Of a stretch of DNA of 64,000 bases, positions 5,884 through 60,144 are shown piece after piece. Under the pieces are notes generated by a model. The model was not told where the DNA came from and ran no database searches. It saw nothing but the letters and a program-made list of their open reading frames with translations. A program made the translations under genes and the position numbers. This stretch comes from Desertivirga arenae (GTDB lineage: Bacteria > Bacteroidota > Bacteroidia > Sphingobacteriales > Sphingobacteriaceae), in contig NZ_JAFEWE010000003.1 of NCBI RefSeq assembly GCF_017355785.1, positions 434,001-498,000 on the forward strand. Direction: 5' to 3'. The first letter of the stretch is position 1; each line of letters begins with the position of its first letter.

Positions 5884-6507
5884 ATGTCACATCAGGTACC
5901 AGAAGACGGAACGCTACTTCCTTTAATGGAAGAATTTTATACGATACAGGGAGAGGGATTCAACACGGGAAAGGCTGCATATTTCATACGTCTAGGAGGA
6001 TGTGATGTAGGTTGTCATTGGTGCGATGTAAAGGAAAGCTGGGATGCTGAACTTCATCCCTTAACTCCTGCCGACATAATTGTAGGGAATGCTGAGAAAT
6101 ATCCAGGCAAAGCTGTGGTGGTTACCGGCGGCGAACCCTTAATCTATAATCTGGACTACCTTACTGCCCAGCTGCAGAAAAAGGGAATAAAAACCTTTAT
6201 TGAAACCTCAGGTGCTTATCCCCTTTCAGGCTCCTGGGACTGGATATGTCTTTCACCGAAAAAATTCAAGGGTCCCGTTCCTAGAATCGCCAGTGCGGCT
6301 AATGAATTAAAGGTGATCGTTTTTAACAAAAGCGATTTCGCCTGGGCAGAACAACATGCGGCTCTGGTTGGACCTGATTGTAAATTGTATCTGCAGCCAG
6401 AATGGTCTAAGTCCAAGGAGATGACCCCCTTAATTATTAATTATGTAATGGAGAATCCGAAATGGGAAATTTCTCTGCAAACCCATAAATATCTGAATAT
6501 CCCGTAA
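5884..6507 (+). CDS. queE: 7-carboxy-7-deazaguanine synthase
   Basis: Radical-SAM enzyme that converts 6-carboxytetrahydropterin to 7-carboxy-7-deazaguanine in the queuosine/preQ0 pathway. With the start at 5884 it has 207 aa. The cluster-binding motif is the QueE-type CxxxCxxC (Cys40, Cys44, Cys47 in GGCDVGCHWCD), preceded by the family hallmark EFYTIQGEG, and VTGGEPL binds SAM. An upstream ATG at 5842 would add 14 residues, but a consensus -7 box lies between the two, so the shorter form is preferred. No other queuosine gene is nearby. It runs in the same direction as the OmpA gene, 23 bp downstream of its stop. Confidence 0.93.
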   Translation: MSHQVPEDGTLLPLMEEFYTIQGEGFNTGKAAYFIRLGGCDVGCHWCDVKESWDAELHPLTPADIIVGNAEKYPGKAVVVTGGEPLIYNLDYLTAQLQKKGIKTFIETSGAYPLSGSWDWICLSPKKFKGPVPRIASAANELKVIVFNKSDFAWAEQHAALVGPDCKLYLQPEWSKSKEMTPLIINYVMENPKWEISLQTHKYLNIP

Positions 6508-6530
6508 CTTGCTACCAAAAAATCCGTTTC

Positions 6531-8435
6531 ATGATTACCATGAAAACTTTTTTGGCCATTGCCCTGACTTTTTGTTTTTACGGCAGTTTTGCACAGTCCC
6601 TGTCTTCTCAAAATAAGAAGGCCTTAAAATCCTACGAATTGGCAAATCAGCTATTGTCTACTAACCAGTATACTAAAGCTTTAGAGGAGTTGAAGTCGGC
6701 CATTGCTGAAGATAGTCGTTTCGCTGAGGCCTATTTCCTCTCGGGTGATATTTTAAGGCGACTTCAACGGTTTGAAGAAGCTAAGAATAATTATAAGAAA
6801 GTTGCTGAACTGAATCCTAAAATTGATCCTTCTCTGTATTTCAATCTGGGGGAAAGCGAATTGCGTACTGGCGATTATAGTACCGCCCTGCTTCACTTGA
6901 AAGAGTATAGCACTACTCCTAACCTGAGTGACAGTAGAAAAAAGCTCCTTTCTAAACATCTTGCAGATGCTGAATTTTCCATTGAAGCCACTAAAAGACC
7001 GGTCAGTTTCAACCCAAAAAATAGCGGACCTGAAGTGAACTCCGCTGCCGACGAATATCTTCCTGTAGTCACTGCAGATGAAAATACTCTCATCTTCACC
7101 AGAAAGAACAACAATAATGAAGATTTTTATCACAGCACTCGTTCTGGCAGTAATAACTGGCAAAAAGCCAGTTATTTAAGTCCTAATATTAACACAAGCC
7201 TTTTCAATGAGGGCTCACAGTGTATCTCACCTGATGGGAAATACCTCTTCTTTACTGGCTGTAACAGACCGGATGGCCTGGGCAGATGTGACATCTATGT
7301 TTGTCACCGCGAAGGAGATGAGTGGAGTAAACCTTTCAATTTGGGGTCACCTGTTAATGGCAACACCTGGGAGTCGCAACCTTCCATAAGCGCTGACGGT
7401 CGTACCCTTTATTTTGTGAGCAGCAGGCCGGGAGGATTGGGCGGCTTCGATATCTGGAAGACTATTTTACTGCAGGATGGGAATTGGGCTGCTCCAGAAA
7501 ATCTTGGTCCCGAAATTAATACCCCTTATGATGAGGAATCTGCTTTCATTCACCCTGATGGAAAGACACTTTACTTCTCTTCCAAAGGCTGGCCGGGACT
7601 GGGCGGAAGAGACCTTTTCTTTAGCAAATTGGATAATAACGGGAAATGGCAAAAACCGGTAAACCTGGGCTATCCCATAAACACTTTTAAAGATGAAGGT
7701 GGTCTGACTGTAAGTACGAATGGAAGAACAGCTTATTTTTCGTCTGACAAAGAAGGTGGACTCGGGGGCATGGATCTGTATTCCTTTGAACTTGCAAAAT
7801 CCCTTAGACCTGAAACAGTTACTTATGTGAAAGGCAACATCACCGATGCAGAAACAGGAGAAACCCTGGCAGCCGCTGTTAAAGTAATTGAACTGAACTC
7901 TAACACAGCAGTATACGAAGACAATGCAGAAGAAGGATCATTTATGGCAACTATGCCGGCCGGAAAACAATACGCCTTAGAAGTTGAGAAAGAAGGATAC
8001 CTATTCTATTCGCACAATTTCTCCCTGGTACAATCCGCGGAAACAGATCAGCACTTTGCGATAAAAGCAAGTCTAAACAAGATTAAAGAAGGCAGCCTAG
8101 TTGTATTAAATAATATTTTCTTCGACACGAATAAATATACCTTACTTCCAGAGTCAAAAGCCGAATTAGGCCAGTTGATCAATTTCCTTTCAGCAAATCC
8201 AAAGGTAAACATTGAAATCGGTGGCCATACTGATAATGTAGGTGATGAGAAGACCAATCTTATTTTATCAGAAAACAGGGCAAAGGCAGTGTATCAGTAT
8301 TTGATCTCTAACAAGGTCTCCCCTGCCCGTCTAAGCTTCAAAGGCTATGGCAAAACAAAATCTGTCGCAGATAATTCAACGGAAGCAGGAAGAAAGCAAA
8401 ACAGGAGAACTGAGTTCAGAATCACGAAAATCTAA
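6531..8435 (+). CDS. OmpA-family protein with TPR, PD40 propeller and peptidoglycan-binding domain (PorE-like architecture)
   Basis: Exported cell-envelope protein of 634 aa. A signal peptide ends near FYGSFAQ. TPR repeats follow (about residues 25-155), then a five-bladed PD40/WD40-like propeller (about 165-420, repeated blades such as SADGRTLYFVSSRPGGLGG). A carboxypeptidase-regulatory-like beta sandwich follows (about 430-515), then an OmpA C-terminal peptidoglycan-binding domain with IGGHTDNVGD and NRRTEFRI. This domain order is that of PorE, a type IX secretion component of Porphyromonas, but paralogues with the same plan and other roles are common and no clear lipobox Cys is seen. The ATG at 6540 (MKTFLAIA) is an equally likely start. 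No other por gene is in the window. Confidence 0.88.
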   Translation: MITMKTFLAIALTFCFYGSFAQSLSSQNKKALKSYELANQLLSTNQYTKALEELKSAIAEDSRFAEAYFLSGDILRRLQRFEEAKNNYKKVAELNPKIDPSLYFNLGESELRTGDYSTALLHLKEYSTTPNLSDSRKKLLSKHLADAEFSIEATKRPVSFNPKNSGPEVNSAADEYLPVVTADENTLIFTRKNNNNEDFYHSTRSGSNNWQKASYLSPNINTSLFNEGSQCISPDGKYLFFTGCNRPDGLGRCDIYVCHREGDEWSKPFNLGSPVNGNTWESQPSISADGRTLYFVSSRPGGLGGFDIWKTILLQDGNWAAPENLGPEINTPYDEESAFIHPDGKTLYFSSKGWPGLGGRDLFFSKLDNNGKWQKPVNLGYPINTFKDEGGLTVSTNGRTAYFSSDKEGGLGGMDLYSFELAKSLRPETVTYVKGNITDAETGETLAAAVKVIELNSNTAVYEDNAEEGSFMATMPAGKQYALEVEKEGYLFYSHNFSLVQSAETDQHFAIKASLNKIKEGSLVVLNNIFFDTNKYTLLPESKAELGQLINFLSANPKVNIEIGGHTDNVGDEKTNLILSENRAKAVYQYLISNKVSPARLSFKGYGKTKSVADNSTEAGRKQNRRTEFRITKI

Positions 8436-52828: not shown

Positions 52829-54043
52829 TTATGCTTTATTACTTAAATTGATCTCCTTTAGCATTTTGCCTGATAAAAATAAAAGCGCAAGACCTGCTAC
52901 ACCGAGAGCCCCCCACAGCATAGGTGAAAAGTCTTTACTTTTTTTAGCAGCAACTGCTTTAAAGTAAGAATTTCGTTGCAGGGGTAAGTGTTGAACATCT
53001 ATTACTTTATTCAGGCTTTCCTTAGTAAAGTATTTCAAATCGTAATCGGGAATTGAAGCCGTAGGATTCCCCGTGAGAATAAGATAGTCACCCCCTTTCT
53101 CGAGATATGCAAGGATAGTTCTATTTAAACTGGAGGCTTGAACATCAGCAATTTCTAATGCAGGATTATCGCCATTATTTATAACAAGTTTTAACTCCTT
53201 AGATTTTGCGGACAGACTTATTGCATTTTCCATATCTGAACTCAATTGTCCTTCTGAAATTTCTATAAACCCTGTGCCCCTTTTCTCTAAGATCTTAAAC
53301 TCTCTTTTATAAAACTTTGGACTAGTTACTTTAACTATCAATCTGTCAACTTTATATCTCTCGTTAAATGCCAGGTTAACATAAGTATTCCTATCACTAC
53401 TATCCTTGCTTATCCACTTTAGTGGTAACCCAGTAAAAGAAGGAGCCTTATTATAATCCCTGAAAACACCAACACGCATCAGATTTAAAGGGCTTTTATG
53501 ACTATTATAAATTTGCAACTTATAATACTTGTAACCTGAGACAGGAAAACTTAAGGTTTCGTAATGATTGTCCTTATCCAACACCTCGGTAGGCTGCAAC
53601 AGTATATCCTCGTCTAAGGCAAACCACTTTTTTCCATCATCACTACCTGACAGATCTGCTTTCCGAGCCACCCTTGTGTTTTTGATATTTAACCAAAGCC
53701 TGTTAATTACCCCTGCTTCCCCGTTCTCTATAATAAGAGAAGTTGTACTATCAGTTTCTAAATTGCTTACAATACGAAAGGGTCGAAACTCTGCTCCCGT
53801 CTGGGACAAACTTGTTTCAGAAACAAAGGCGATAAATTTACTCTTCTTGTTTAGAATCCTGATATCAGAAAGATCAATTCTCGATTTTGCAATTAAAGCT
53901 GGGCTAATTGTTATTCTGTAAAAACCGTCAGAGGGTACTTGTTTTACTTTGGCACTAAACATAAAGTCTTGTTGTGCATTGGCTGCTTTAGAATTAAGGA
54001 GTACCAGCACCAAAAAAAGATTAATCCTCAACCTGTTTCTCAT
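52829..54043 (-). CDS. DUF3999 family membrane-anchored protein
   Basis: A 404-aa exported protein: signal peptide (to ANAQ, residues 21-24), a large beta-rich extracytoplasmic region, and one C-terminal helix (about 373-395, MLWGALGVAGLALLFLSGKML) followed by a short basic tail. This topology and the discoidin-like strands (GSDDGKKWFALDEDIL) match DUF3999, a family usually found next to DUF2339. Its ATG lies 23 nt inside the DUF2339 gene, so the two are translationally coupled. Function unknown; a periplasmic sensor or ligand-binding role for the DUF2339 partner is a guess. Confidence 0.78.
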   Translation of the reverse strand: MRNRLRINLFLVLVLLNSKAANAQQDFMFSAKVKQVPSDGFYRITISPALIAKSRIDLSDIRILNKKSKFIAFVSETSLSQTGAEFRPFRIVSNLETDSTTSLIIENGEAGVINRLWLNIKNTRVARKADLSGSDDGKKWFALDEDILLQPTEVLDKDNHYETLSFPVSGYKYYKLQIYNSHKSPLNLMRVGVFRDYNKAPSFTGLPLKWISKDSSDRNTYVNLAFNERYKVDRLIVKVTSPKFYKREFKILEKRGTGFIEISEGQLSSDMENAISLSAKSKELKLVINNGDNPALEIADVQASSLNRTILAYLEKGGDYLILTGNPTASIPDYDLKYFTKESLNKVIDVQHLPLQRNSYFKAVAAKKSKDFSPMLWGALGVAGLALLFLSGKMLKEINLSNKA

Positions 54044-56381
54044 CAGTTACAATGATTTGTTTAAGTTTTTGATACATGAAAGAGACAATTAAAAGTAAAA
54101 CACCCAGACAAAAGAAGGCTACTATTTTACCGGCGGCTGGAATATTTCTGATATCAAATAAGAATAATTTGAGCAGGGTGAGCGAAAACAAACTTAGTGA
54201 AATCACCCGTAAAGTTCTATTCTTATGATTCATTCCCAGCCACATAATAACAAAAGATGAAAGCCCCCAAAGCACTGGTAATCCTGTTTTTATATAAATA
54301 TTCTGGATAGCTGCAATTGTGTGTTTACTGGAGTGGAATACAATGTTACTAATAAGGTTTACCTCCAGACTTAAAAACAGAACAGCTGCAATGCAAAACA
54401 CCCAGAGGGTAGTCTTAAAGATCTCCGAACTGAGAACTGCGAAACATAATTTGATTAGCTGAACAAACAAACTGGCCATGATAATGACTGCTATCCAATG
54501 AGCAAGGAAGTGGTAAACAGAAACAGTTCGTTCCTCCAGTATCTGCCATTGGAGATAGTTAAAATTAGGTTCACAGATAAGGTAAATCACTATAGTTACG
54601 GCAATAATTATAGCTCTTACGTGATCAGTAAAAGTGTCTAACTTTAACCTAGAGCCTATTAAATTTAAAAGGAAAACGAAGGCTGGAACATATAACATCA
54701 AATAAAGAACATTAATATCGCCATCAGGAAAACGGGTATTGAATTGATGGTTAACCTCTAATATGCCCGACAGAAACAATAAAACGATAGCGGTGGCCTG
54801 GAATACGTTCCAGGGAATTTCAAATTCTTCCTCATCCTCGTGCATCCTTGCGAGAAAAGATAAGAGGAAGGTTCCAAGAGCAGAGAAAATGGTCGTTATA
54901 AATCCCTTATTAATGATCACCAAATAGATCTGCTCCGACCGATAGATCATCTTCCAATCCATTATCAGACTTATCATCATGGCCAGCCAGATGAGTTGCG
55001 AACTCCATTTGATAAGTCTTATTCCCGACTTCTGTGATAACCAATAAAGCAAAACGGATTCAGAAGCCCAGAACAAAGTAATATGATTTCCTTTGAGCTG
55101 AATTGGTGCTGTAAGTGAAACAAAGGTTAACGTAATACCAATCAGTAAGTATAGAATATTCGCATCAACTTTTTTATTTCTAAATAGAATATAGGACAAG
55201 CAAAGATTTATGAATGCCAGACCAGCAGTGAACAGGCCCCGGTATATCGTTGCGTCCATTGCAGCTAACAACCATAAACCGGCAGAAAAGTAAAGCGCAG
55301 TATTTATTAAAAGAATACTAAAATCAGATGCTATAAACGCTTTGTTTTCACGTACATTATAAGCAATATTTATTGCGAAGAACAGGAGGTAGAAAATAGT
55401 AGCATAGATAAATCCGATATAATAATTCGGTGCTGTTAAAGTGTATAATACTCCTGAAAAAACAATAACGGTTAACGCAAAGGATACAATATTGAGGATC
55501 CGCCAGGATTTAAATATCGCAATTACCAGCAACCCAGAATTCAATACAAGGAGATAAAGGAATAGTCCGTTGTAATTCGCATGACCTGTACTAAGCATGA
55601 AAGGGCTTGCCAACCCTCCAACTAAAGCAATGACTGCCAGCTCCTGCTTATCATAAAGCAAAGAAAGAGCTACAGCAAAGGCCGTAATCACAATCATTAT
55701 AATAAGTCCTACAATCTGACTGAAGAGGTGGAACTGATGGAAACCCAAGGCTATGGTAAAGTAAAAAACAGCTAAACCTCCACCAACGAGTACAGAGCTA
55801 AAGGCCTTAAATGTTTGACGAAGGCGGTGAGCGACGCCTATCAGTATTGCGCCTGCCACCATACCAATAGCAACACGTCCAACCGGTCCTATCCAGTTAG
55901 CATCAATTGCATATTTTACAAAGTAACCTATAGATAGCACCAGAATAGCAATACCGATTTTATTCACCAGGTTCTCGCCGATAAATTTTTCCAGGTCAGG
56001 ATATCTCTCAAAAAAAGATAGTTCTGGCTCAGGTTCTGGCAAGGGCCTTCTCCGTAAAACTTCCTGAGGTCTTTGTTCTGCCACTTGAGGAGTGGGCTTT
56101 GGAACTGGACCAGAGGGCCGAGGTTGATCTATTTGCTTTTCTAAAGCTTGAGGAATTGGAGCAGTTGGACCAGGCTTTGCAACTGGTTCCGGTGAAATAA
56201 CAGGTTTCTCCGCTCCTCTTTCTGGTTGCCTTTGGTCCAGCTTAGAAGATAGCCGGTTTAGCTGGGAACCTATTTTTTCCAGCTGATTCTCCAGATCATC
56301 TATTTTCTCTGATAGAGTCGATTTCTGCCGTACCACTAACACAAGTAGAAGCAGCAAAAGCACTATGATAAAAAATTCCAT
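54021..56381 (-). CDS. DUF2339 polytopic membrane protein
   Basis: A 786-aa inner-membrane protein. One N-terminal helix (1-16) is followed by a coiled coil (about 20-52, KIDDLENQLEKIGSQLNRLSSKLDQ region), a Pro-rich linker (about 55-120) and then a long series of more than 20 hydrophobic helices. FIGENLVNKIGIAILVLSIGYFVKYAID, shared with DUF2339 proteins, begins the membrane part. The short C-terminal tail is charged. It overlaps its DUF3999 partner by 23 nt. The family has no established function; the helix count suggests a channel, transporter or envelope-polymer role. Confidence 0.82.
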   Translation of the reverse strand: MEFFIIVLLLLLLVLVVRQKSTLSEKIDDLENQLEKIGSQLNRLSSKLDQRQPERGAEKPVISPEPVAKPGPTAPIPQALEKQIDQPRPSGPVPKPTPQVAEQRPQEVLRRRPLPEPEPELSFFERYPDLEKFIGENLVNKIGIAILVLSIGYFVKYAIDANWIGPVGRVAIGMVAGAILIGVAHRLRQTFKAFSSVLVGGGLAVFYFTIALGFHQFHLFSQIVGLIIMIVITAFAVALSLLYDKQELAVIALVGGLASPFMLSTGHANYNGLFLYLLVLNSGLLVIAIFKSWRILNIVSFALTVIVFSGVLYTLTAPNYYIGFIYATIFYLLFFAINIAYNVRENKAFIASDFSILLINTALYFSAGLWLLAAMDATIYRGLFTAGLAFINLCLSYILFRNKKVDANILYLLIGITLTFVSLTAPIQLKGNHITLFWASESVLLYWLSQKSGIRLIKWSSQLIWLAMMISLIMDWKMIYRSEQIYLVIINKGFITTIFSALGTFLLSFLARMHEDEEEFEIPWNVFQATAIVLLFLSGILEVNHQFNTRFPDGDINVLYLMLYVPAFVFLLNLIGSRLKLDTFTDHVRAIIIAVTIVIYLICEPNFNYLQWQILEERTVSVYHFLAHWIAVIIMASLFVQLIKLCFAVLSSEIFKTTLWVFCIAAVLFLSLEVNLISNIVFHSSKHTIAAIQNIYIKTGLPVLWGLSSFVIMWLGMNHKNRTLRVISLSLFSLTLLKLFLFDIRNIPAAGKIVAFFCLGVLLLIVSFMYQKLKQIIVTDEKQVED

Positions 56382-56510: not shown

Positions 56511-56933
56511 ATGAAGAAGATAACTGCAGTTCCAGCAGAAATAGTTTGGCCTATCCGTCACCAGGTTATGTATCCTGATTTAAATTTGGATGATATTAAA
56601 CTAGAATCAGACCGGCTAGGGCAACACCTTGCACTGATTGAGGATGGAAAAGTAATAAGCGTGGTATCCTTGGTTAAAAGTGGCCAGGAACTACAGTTTC
56701 GCAAATTTGCTACTCTTAATGCATACCAGGGCAAAGGATATGGCTCTGCTTTACTAAAATATGTACTCGACCAGGCAGAAAAAGAACAATTCAAGAGAGT
56801 ATGGTGCAATGCAAGAGAAAGTGCGTCTTCATTTTATCAGCGATTTGGCTTCAGGAAGACTGAAAAAACATTTTTTAAGGACGGGTATGACTTCGTTATA
56901 ATGGAATTACTGATCCCAAAACCAAAATCTTAA
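56511..56933 (+). CDS. GNAT-family N-acetyltransferase
   Basis: A 140-aa acetyl-CoA-dependent acetyltransferase. The acetyl-CoA-binding motif A is seen as LQFRKFATLNAYQGKGYGSALLKYVLD, with the Q/R-x-x-G-x-G/A signature QGKGYG. Motif B includes SASSFYQRFGF with the usual Tyr. The N-terminus starts MKKITAVPAEIVWPIRHQV, common in small GNAT proteins of this phylum. The ATG at 56511 is chosen over a TTG at 56418 because the extra residues do not fit the family and a -7-like box lies between. Convergent with the next gene, stops 2 nt apart. Acetyl acceptor unknown. Confidence 0.87.
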   Translation: MKKITAVPAEIVWPIRHQVMYPDLNLDDIKLESDRLGQHLALIEDGKVISVVSLVKSGQELQFRKFATLNAYQGKGYGSALLKYVLDQAEKEQFKRVWCNARESASSFYQRFGFRKTEKTFFKDGYDFVIMELLIPKPKS

Positions 56934-56935
56934 TA

Positions 56936-58141
56936 TTAATTTCCCTGTATCAACTCATAGAACTTGTTCGCTGCTTCTGGGAGTTGAATTAACCTTTGCT
57001 TCAAAATTTGCTGATGCTCTGGTCCAACAATTGAATAAACTTCTTTTGGGTAAGCTTTAAAGGCTTCGGCAATGAGATCTTCTGTTAATCGGGACTGAAT
57101 AAAATGGGCTTCCCGTTCAAAGTCCTCTTTGGTTAACCTTTTAAGTATGGCTGCATCCAGAGACGCAGATTGCTCCATCAAACCTTCTACGCTCTTAAAT
57201 TCAGGAGTAAAGGATTGGAACATGTTAACAAAAAGACGTGATAATTTATTAATGCTACCGTTACCGAACCGGTAAAAGGCCATATCGCGGTCTATTGCCA
57301 GGGGAATAATTATAGCGCCTCCCGCCTCAGTCTTTTTCAGCCACTTCCAGTTGCCCTCATGCCGGTCCCAATCCGAGATTAACATATCGAATAGCCTGGT
57401 ACGAAGGTACAATATGCTGTCGACTCGAATATTTTCAGATTTCGAAGCTGAAAGCATTTCTTGCGTGTCTAATATTCGTACAGCACTGCCAGAGTCCTTT
57501 TTGGTATCGTCCCAGCGCCTGATCAAAGTAACTAATCTACCAGCCATCCGGTCATTGTATTTTCCCAATTTCTTGTCATAGGGAAAAAAATAGAACCGGG
57601 GTGTATCGCAATGAATATTTAAAGCGGGGGCCAATTCGGCTACAACAAGGCTTCCAAACGGATTCATTGAGCAGGCTTGATCGCGAAACATAGGACGAAG
57701 GATACTCGTTCTAAGGAAAGACGGCAGGGCAGCCGACTGGTCCTTATTCACAGATCGAACAGACCAAATCTGACCAGAACTATCTCTTACTTTGATTCCT
57801 ATTGTTTGATGCCTTCCTGTGAAATCAATGGGTATTAATCCCCCCTTTACTTCCCCAAGCTTCAGAACTGGTACTGTGATTTCAAGGTGCCACAACTCCC
57901 TGTAAGCAGAACCAAGTAACCACCTGACTAGGTTACCGCGACGGTAAAAGTCTCCCGGCACAACTTCTATTGAGTCGGCGATAGTATGAATATTAAACTT
58001 TAGAGCAGCCACCTTTAATCGCTCTTCATTTGAAAAAGCTTTTCTCTCCCTTGAATTTAAAATGTTGGGAAGGATAAAGAATCCAACCAGGAACAAAAAT
58101 AGGAATAAGGATAGGCGCGTATACCACCGGATTCTTTTCAT
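56936..58141 (-). CDS. Membrane-anchored protein with HipA/Fam20-like atypical kinase motifs
   Basis: A 401-aa protein with one N-terminal helix (about 8-27, LSLFLFLFLVGFFILPNI), placing the rest outside the inner membrane. Residues 251-265 read FDMLISDWDRHEGNW and are followed by IPLAIDRDMAF at 280-288. Asp259-x4-Asn264 then Asp284 repeats the catalytic-Asp/metal-Asn/metal-Asp spacing of HipA-like kinases (5 and about 18-20 residues), and SVRSVNKDQ with Lys133 could supply the nucleotide-binding lysine. The comparison is from memory of the fold. No known family name was recognised. It would be an unusual secreted-side kinase or a pseudo-kinase. Convergent with GNAT. Confidence 0.7.
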   Translation of the reverse strand: MKRIRWYTRLSLFLFLFLVGFFILPNILNSRERKAFSNEERLKVAALKFNIHTIADSIEVVPGDFYRRGNLVRWLLGSAYRELWHLEITVPVLKLGEVKGGLIPIDFTGRHQTIGIKVRDSSGQIWSVRSVNKDQSAALPSFLRTSILRPMFRDQACSMNPFGSLVVAELAPALNIHCDTPRFYFFPYDKKLGKYNDRMAGRLVTLIRRWDDTKKDSGSAVRILDTQEMLSASKSENIRVDSILYLRTRLFDMLISDWDRHEGNWKWLKKTEAGGAIIIPLAIDRDMAFYRFGNGSINKLSRLFVNMFQSFTPEFKSVEGLMEQSASLDAAILKRLTKEDFEREAHFIQSRLTEDLIAEAFKAYPKEVYSIVGPEHQQILKQRLIQLPEAANKFYELIQGN

Positions 58142-59055: not shown

Positions 59056-60144
59056 TTATAGCTTGATTTCGTTTAAAAACTTATCCACGAAATTAAATCC
59101 CCATCCTGGCCCTTCGTGTGGATAAGCAAAGCCGTCTTTTACCAGCATTGGTTTATCAATCAAAGGATCAATCCAGTCAAATGACTCAACACCAACGCCA
59201 TTAGGGATGGAACAAACCAGAGGTACATCATAGTCCTTATAATAATGAGGCAATACTGGAATATGATAAGAATTGGCCAAGGCAGCGCTTTCACGCCACT
59301 CCTCAACACTGCCGATCCTTAAAAGGTCTGGTTGCCAGATATCCAATGCATTCCGCTGCAGTAACTGAAGTAAAGGAACGGTATCGTACTCGCGTTCGCC
59401 CATTGCAAGAGAAATCCCTGTCTGTTGTTTTAACATACGGTACCCTTCAAAATCCTGGTGATGTATAGGCTCCTCAAACCAGAAGATCTCCAGTTCCTGG
59501 GCTGCCCTTGCTAGCTGAACCGCTGCCGGAACTGTCATTCCCTGATTAGCATCCATCATTATGTTTACCTGGGTGCCCACAGCACCTCGCACTGCCTTGA
59601 GACGTTCAAGATCTGTCTTCCAGTCAGGTGATCCAACCTTAATCTTTACGGCTTTGAAACCTCGGGATGCATAGTCTGTCACCTCTTTGATCAATTCTTC
59701 TGTAGAGTATGAGACCCAGCCCCCGCTACCGTAGATATTACATTTTTCCTTGTATGTTCCAAGTAGTTTTCCAACAGGTTGATTCAAGTATTTGCCCCAT
59801 GCATCCCACATTGCAATATTAATAGCAGCTCTGGCCCATTTACTTACACCCGAATTGCCAAAGTATTCCGAGAGGTCGTCAAGCTTTTTCAAAACTTTAC
59901 CAGTTTCGTTCACTGCATAGCCTTTAACATGAGGTAGCAGGTCTTTGAATGCTCCTGAGATAGCGGATGGCGAATATTGAAAAGACAAAAGATAAGCCTC
60001 TCCTATTATCCCATTTTCTAATTGCAGCCGCAGTACAAGGAAGGATATTTCACTTAGTGTATGTGTTGCATCAGCAATAGGCTTCTTTAATTCAGCCGTT
60101 GCTTTATAAAGTTTAAAATCTTTGATATTTATTGAAGAACTCAT
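59056..60144 (-). CDS. Enolase-superfamily sugar-acid dehydratase (mandelate racemase / muconate lactonising type)
   Basis: A 362-aa TIM-barrel enzyme with an N-terminal capping domain. The residues of the family are readable: Lys167-x-Lys169 (KIKVG), metal ligands Asp198 (DANQG), Glu224 (FEEP) and Glu250 (MGERE), then Asp273 (QPDLLRIG) and His300 (LPHYYKD), the Asp-His dyad of the mandelate-racemase subgroup. Such proteins dehydrate aldonic or uronic acids. It precedes the SDR gene by 2 nt and is divergent from an AraC/XylR regulator, so it is likely the first step of a sugar-acid pathway. The specific sugar is unknown. Confidence 0.87.
   Translation of the reverse strand: MSSSINIKDFKLYKATAELKKPIADATHTLSEISFLVLRLQLENGIIGEAYLLSFQYSPSAISGAFKDLLPHVKGYAVNETGKVLKKLDDLSEYFGNSGVSKWARAAINIAMWDAWGKYLNQPVGKLLGTYKEKCNIYGSGGWVSYSTEELIKEVTDYASRGFKAVKIKVGSPDWKTDLERLKAVRGAVGTQVNIMMDANQGMTVPAAVQLARAAQELEIFWFEEPIHHQDFEGYRMLKQQTGISLAMGEREYDTVPLLQLLQRNALDIWQPDLLRIGSVEEWRESAALANSYHIPVLPHYYKDYDVPLVCSIPNGVGVESFDWIDPLIDKPMLVKDGFAYPHEGPGWGFNFVDKFLNEIKL

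Follow-up and report, generated by a model that had tools for sequence, protein, structure and literature searches.

The minus-strand gene at 56936..58141 of the window, by which is meant the whole stretch of 64,000 nucleotides from Desertivirga arenae (contig NZ_JAFEWE010000003.1) that was analysed, codes for a protein of 401 amino acids (P0001, or L001 in the numbering of loci used below) in which an N-terminal anchor helix precedes a domain with a well-supported predicted two-lobed protein-kinase-like (PKL) fold. With roughly even confidence, P0001 is considered here to be a periplasmic PKL protein anchored in the inner membrane and a putative metal-dependent phosphotransferase, or a related nucleotidyl-transferring enzyme, with a substrate in the cell envelope. 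The gene is delimited by its reading frame, an ATG start and homologues of similar size (L004 with 52% identity, L032 and L033 with 44%), and the residues K133, D259, N264 and D284, on which a preliminary description had based the suggestion of a HipA- or Fam20-like kinase, are located in this frame as claimed.

Predicted fold

The AlphaFold2 model of P0001 (pLDDT 93.5, pTM 0.91) was built on an alignment of 60 of the 81 available sequences, and, together with the homologue alignment and the fold matches, it delimits the kinase-like domain to about residues 54-401 (56939..57982, minus strand, as for all features of P0001 given below). The top Foldseek matches of the model are CtkA (E 1.5e-5) and CotH (7.2e-4), with modest TM-scores of 0.28-0.37 by query among the top seven. 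In VIA-align 2, which re-ranks the top 1000 chains of Foldseek, so that families absent from these may still match, PI4KIIbeta (Z 14.3, rmsd 4.2, 246 aligned) and CotH (Z 14.2, rmsd 4.4, 253 aligned) rank equal, CtkA scoring lower by about 1 (Z 13.2, rmsd 4.3, 235 aligned), followed by HipA (Z 11.0, rmsd 4.2, 210 aligned), LepB (Z 10.8, rmsd 3.5, 200 aligned) and Fam20C (Z 10.6, rmsd 4.8, 229 aligned). The list of structural matches is headed by kinases or kinase-like proteins, and HipA, Fam20C and CotH, with which the preliminary description had proposed a structural comparison, are all among the matches.

Sequence and profile searches

At the level of sequence no family name had been recognised for P0001, and this was borne out by the profile searches, as neither Pfam nor NCBIfam yields a family at cut-off, the best Pfam match being LepB_N (Legionella lipid kinase) with an E of 0.025. 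In a Pfam search of 60 family members, in which the HMMER filters conceal most weak matches, the profiles of HipA_C (PF07804), CotH (PF08757), PI3/PI4 kinase (PF00454) and Fam20C (PF06702) each matched 0/60 members at E <= 1. The HipA_C profile does detect HipA in 25 of 60 relatives' genomes, as does the CotH profile CotH in 35 of 100; PF00454 was found in 0/198 genomes, and the genome search with PF06702 gave no match anywhere, controls included, and is hence uninformative. Of the HipA/Fam20-like resemblance suggested earlier the kinase-like fold has stood, but membership in the HipA family has not. The same search of 60 members returned weak matches to 23 scattered families (best E 0.0051), among them Pkinase_C in a single member (E 0.17); no family was matched by more than two members, and none was considered meaningful. 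A search of the PDB with P0001 as single sequence gave nothing over the cut-off, the best match being the Met repressor (E 1.1).

When the family profile was compared with the PDB sequences, CtkA ranked first with an E of 0.2, or of 0.02 with a broader alignment, neither of which is significant. In the CtkA alignment D259 and position 264 stand opposite the Asp and the Asn of DRHNGNW, and in the search giving an E of 0.2 D284 misses the Asp of FDCG by one residue. The other weak matches, which were rejected, are HDAC6 (E 0.13 and weaker), where a D-W-D stretch of 40 residues is aligned, urocanase (E 0.33) and a CAP-binding protein interactor (0.87).

Profile-profile comparisons by hhalign with relatives of HipA and CotH found in nearby genomes gave low probabilities, of 0.9% and 2.7%, respectively, for the whole domain, and of 3.1% and 5.8% for the catalytic segment. 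With HipA the loop is in register, D259 being placed on the Asp and N264 on the Asn, and the Asp of SPAYD is not opposite D284; with CotH both D259 and D284 are placed on an Asp and N264 on a Thr. Among 100 column-permuted controls the observed score was reached by none for the HipA segment, by one for the whole HipA domain and by none in either comparison with CotH, with small margins between the best permuted and the observed scores (20.7 versus 22.0 and 24.0 versus 24.0 for HipA, 18.8 versus 20.8 and 22.4 versus 27.7 for CotH). The support from these alignments is weak but consistent.

Conservation of the active-site positions

Conservation was assessed in 110 rows including the window protein (108 of them distinct, with the same picture), i.e., in 111 loci minus L054, which has a stop within the match. 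Invariant in all 110 rows are G109, which belongs to a Gly-rich segment of the predicted beta1-beta2 region (residues 100-113, 57803..57844; GGL.....GR.QT in P0001, GGL....GGG.QT in the family), the two basic residues of R129-S-V-N-K133 (57743..57757), D252, and both Asp of the metal-binding-loop-like motif I-D284-R-D286 (57284..57295). D257, with which the catalytic-loop-like motif D257-W-D259-R-H-E-G-N264-W (57347..57373; DWDRHEDQW in the family) begins, is kept in 109 rows, D154 in 108, and a Glu at position 207 in 106, the window protein having Ile there.

Of the catalytic and metal-binding Asp pair proposed in the preliminary description, D284 is fully upheld and D259 largely so, being kept in 97/110 rows. 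As judged from motif and profile alignment rather than from measured geometry, these residues may be the equivalents of the catalytic and the metal-binding Asp. The HipA-type D-x4-N loop is present in the window protein, but position 264 is Gln in 107/110 rows and Asn in three (L001, L004 and L050, the last of which is without D259), so that N264 is a local feature and not the conserved metal-binding Asn that it had been taken for. Non-conservation, named beforehand as evidence against the kinase assignment, is therefore found at position 264 and in part at 259, and not at 284. As to the Lys noted upstream, K133 is indeed invariant, but R129 is equally so and lies within the predicted beta-3 strand (125-130 in the model), directly behind which K133 follows; because both are invariant and R129 is in beta-3, either might be the base that contacts the nucleotide phosphates.

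With regard to the architectural types defined below, D259 is present in 53/53 rows of type A, 19/20 of type B, 20/32 of type C and 5/5 of type D, and it is replaced by Gly in L029 and by Ser in twelve type-C proteins (L042, L050, L051, L057, L061, L064, L071, L075, L079, L093, L101 and L111), eleven from Hymenobacter and one from Pontibacter. In all of these except L050, Arg also replaces His261, and they form one group of the tree with a support of 91/69, or of 100/100 without L050. These twelve are putative natural pseudokinases within the family.

Membrane anchor and compartment

The N-terminal start MKRIRWYTR leads into a hydrophobic helix, which by hydrophobicity comprises residues 8-29 (58055..58120), after MKRIRWY, and extends over residues 2-29 in the model. 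The net positive charge is greater before this helix than behind it, and the C-terminal domain is therefore predicted to lie outside the cytoplasm. Further signs of export are the signal- or lipoprotein-like starts and the outer-membrane barrels of relatives, so that the extracytoplasmic location given in the preliminary description is well supported as a prediction from sequence. Where the helix ends, the four standalone proteins L001, L004, L032 and L033 have the stretch PNI-[FL]-N-x-RE...AFS in common, and its conservation in all of them suggests that the helix is not cleaved. It is thus probably an anchor and not a signal peptide.

Distribution and domain architectures

Homologues were found in 22 of 60 relatives' genomes and, when genomes sampled across the phylum were searched at E <= 1e-10, in 141 of 395. 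In a GTDB-based collection at least 585 of at least 595 candidate stretches were confirmed, and the best 80 loci of these, which were taken on, are mostly from Bacteroidota, with a few from Rhodothermota, Balneolota and Gemmatimonadota and one from a Myxococcota MAG. L012, found in a genome of the window's genus, and L072 from Desertivirga xinjiangensis have identical domains. In five plasmid records with a relative, the gene is annotated as a hypothetical protein in four and carries no feature in one.

Sorting of the 110 rows by frame geometry alone resulted in four types, 73 rows having a C-terminal part of the size of a barrel. Type A (n = 53) has a long N-terminal part in addition to the barrel-sized C-terminal part, type B (n = 20) only the latter; type C (n = 32) consists mostly of proteins of about 530 amino acids, many with lipoprotein-like and some with other starts, and type D (n = 5) of the domain only. 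L095, sorted in type C, branches with type B, and L094 (Pontibacter ramchanderi, 5911-7170), sorted in type D, is a type-B-like gene which ends early in the linker, before any barrel, and is broken or truncated. In nine proteins chosen for a check with Pfam, a metallophosphoesterase was found in 4/4 of type A (one below the cut-off) and a barrel family matched with an E of 0.01 or below in 4/4 of type A (two over the cut-off) and 3/3 of type B (over the cut-off), and the 2/2 of type C had no Pfam match. Twelve of the 35 type-A proteins from the best 80 loci do not have all four phosphoesterase motif patterns, which are complete in the other 23, and type A is therefore not uniform.

The genome of the window itself has two paralogues, namely the type-A protein L002 (1251 amino acids), with a lipoprotein-like start, a PF00149 metallophosphoesterase, the kinase-like domain and an Omp85 barrel, and the type-B protein L003 (846 amino acids), with a signal-peptide-like start, the kinase-like domain and an Omp85 barrel. 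An AlphaFold2 model of another type-B protein, L092 (pLDDT 86.5, 17 sequences), shows the kinase-like domain connected to a barrel by a beta-rich linker, and has BamA as its best Foldseek match (9.3e-11). Among the matches listed from the scan of the phylum are also pairs of adjacent type-C-sized genes on opposite strands (frames of 538-586 amino acids) in three genomes (G256:C1:1087861-1090357, G473:C1:4611929-4614430 and G166:C27:64169-66727), which possibly represent an active and an inactive partner side by side.

In the window protein the kinase-like domain, carried on one helix, extends to the C-terminus, and no barrel follows. Pfam has no match to an Omp85 barrel in P0001; in the relatives examined the barrel was found. 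In an unrooted tree of the 110 domains the four standalone proteins form one group (100/100), which clusters with 19 proteins of type C (99/94). Two of the three genomes of the window's genus contain the standalone form. Three further domain-only frames are among the matches listed from the scan of the phylum (L154, 482-1753, plus strand; L155, 459-1736, plus strand; L156, 439-1710, minus strand); they code for proteins of 423-425 amino acids with an N-terminal hydrophobic stretch, each terminating in a CF-[DE]-C motif. Apart from one another, these proteins are nearest to type A (37-41% identity) and not to the group of the window protein, which hints at a second origin of the helix-anchored, domain-only form.

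Comparison with known kinases and Omp85 proteins

CtkA of Helicobacter pylori (PDB 3akj/3akk), which we take to be a HipA-like kinase, gives the best Foldseek match to P0001 and the best PDB sequence match to the family profile, and DRH-x-GNW is found in both proteins; however, the identity is only about 11-14%, and P0001 has an anchor helix and many of its relatives are fused to a barrel. The type II phosphatidylinositol 4-kinases and LepB resemble P0001 in fold (Z 14.3 and 10.8), and the latter also by its LepB_N domain being the best Pfam match below cut-off, and the motifs of the domain presumably resemble DRGNDNW and AIDNGLAF of PI4KII. In contrast to them, the 60 members searched are without PF00454 matches, and P0001 is bacterial and predicted to be extracytoplasmic. 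With HipA the catalytic-loop spacing [N/D]-x-D-x-H-x-x-[N/Q] is shared in addition to the fold, but the family differs by the lack of a HipA_C match in 60 members and of a HipB-like neighbour among the frames listed, by Gln at position 264 and by a metal Asp that is not aligned with D284; Fam20C likewise matches in fold and not by its profile. For the spore-coat kinase CotH, the high Z-score is accompanied by a pairing of D259 with the Asp of the CotH N-x-D motif and of D284 with that of its W-D, although the CotH profile does not match the members and a Thr is found opposite N264. The catalytic residues of the Bacillus subtilis protein are given as D228 and D251 in the accessible text of PMC7821199, and might correspond to the Asp aligned with these two columns.

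Amongst outer-membrane proteins, Heinz and Lithgow (2014) defined 'Metallo' and 'noNterm' subfamilies of Omp85 (PMC4104836), which, as far as the available text describes them, resemble the relatives of P0001, in which an Omp85-type barrel occurs either together with PF00149 or without it, and differ from the barrel-less window protein. Types A and B may correspond to these two groups, in which case the kinase-like domain would occupy an N-terminal part to which no domain had previously been assigned. In the available text of that survey PF00149 is called a metalloprotease and the word 'kinase' is used 0 times, as it is in the accessible parts of PMC12611786, PMC12045153 and PMC13067283. Searches of the accessible literature found no kinase domain on an Omp85 barrel, and the 72 families of KINtaro (PMC10870513), from what is accessible of it, may include that of P0001. 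The kinase-like fold is known as such; the family, its extracytoplasmic place and its joining to Omp85 and phosphoesterase domains appear to be undescribed in the searchable literature.

Proposed function and alternative explanations

The domain of P0001 is assigned here to an as yet unnamed family of PI4KII/CotH/CtkA/HipA/Fam20 type which is common in Bacteroidota; many relatives carry it N-terminally of an Omp85 outer-membrane barrel, and in some of these a metallophosphoesterase precedes it. According to the favoured hypothesis, R129 and K133 would hold the nucleotide phosphates, D284 and D286 together with the Asn or Gln at position 264 would bind the metal, and the role of D259 would be to position the acceptor, which might be an envelope protein, a lipid or a glycan. 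Fold, conservation, architectures and the signs of export in the sequence are results of computation, and nucleotide binding, catalysis, the substrate and a loss of the barrel by the standalone form are what we infer. A farther-reaching version, which is rather doubtful, assumes a widespread Bacteroidota family combining an extracytoplasmic atypical kinase, a phosphatase and an Omp85 barrel, i.e., a kinase and phosphatase in one chain at the outer membrane, which phosphorylates envelope molecules from a periplasmic or imported donor and of which P0001 is the free form anchored in the inner membrane; that the phosphoesterase of type A removes what the kinase of the same chain adds is speculation. 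To our knowledge, bacteria rarely have kinase-like domains outside their inner membrane, and the energy source of such a domain would be a question in its own right. Once the family has a name, single-residue mutants can be used to test for phosphorylation of the envelope in this phylum.

A less probable but serious rival is a pseudokinase or scaffold, in which the fold binds Omp85 clients, phospholipid, peptidoglycan or nucleotide without phosphotransfer, since ATP is not known to us to occur in the bacterial periplasm, where the domain is predicted to be, and since one type-C group has lost D259. Loss of this residue in 13/110 rows, with the twelve Ser cases grouping together and D284 and D286 staying, the Gln in place of Asn at position 264, and the invariant W258, W265 and W267, which suggest structural or binding roles, are all in line with such a protein; the presence of D284 and D286 in every row, however, and the retention of the catalytic-type acids outside that single type-C group argue for an enzyme. 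The same acids are left unexplained if the domain is an accessory module that replaces the POTRA repeats in an Omp85 insertase, with the standalone form as inner-membrane partner of such a barrel, which is unlikely, although an Omp85-type barrel follows the domain in the type-A and type-B proteins examined, the L092 model matches BamA, and the window's genome has one protein of either type besides P0001. Assembly roles have been suggested for Omp85 barrels of unknown function in the available text of Heinz and Lithgow (PMC4104836), where enzyme-bearing Omp85 proteins (PlpD, patatin) are named as well, a point against the accessory role.

Finally, P0001 might be an ordinary membrane protein with a D-x4-N...D spacing that arose by luck. 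D-x4-N followed by D after 14-30 residues is found in 15/41 non-overlapping genes of the window and, when P0001 was shuffled 5000 times, in 41% of the products, and with a Lys 60-200 residues upstream still in 12/41 genes and 34% of the shuffles; the bare spacing is therefore common by chance and by itself weak evidence, and N264 is not conserved. DRHxx[N/Q] occurs in 1/41 genes, that of P0001 alone, and in 0.26% of the shuffles. In view of the confident kinase-like fold and the family-wide conservation of the other positions, such a coincidence is largely refuted and highly improbable.

Genomic neighbourhood

The gene of P0001 lies tail to tail with a plus-strand acetyltransferase gene, the stop of which is at 56933, and a short-chain dehydrogenase gene is located on the same strand as the P0001 gene, 150 bases upstream of it. 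Among the frames of at least 80 amino acids listed and the seven neighbours scanned there is no HipB-type DNA-binding partner beside it. No operon partner of the standalone genes was found, the sole recurring neighbour being an enolase-superfamily gene in the window and at L112, and none of the neighbour genes of these two loci was observed at the two Fulvivirga loci. This enolase-superfamily gene (59056-60144 in the window, MR_MLE by Pfam) resembles its counterpart at 3279-4400 of L112, each lying near a standalone gene; these are the two genomes of the genus in which the standalone gene occurs. At 52829-56381 of the window, overlapping same-strand genes for DUF3999 and DUF2339 membrane proteins appear to form a unit of two genes.
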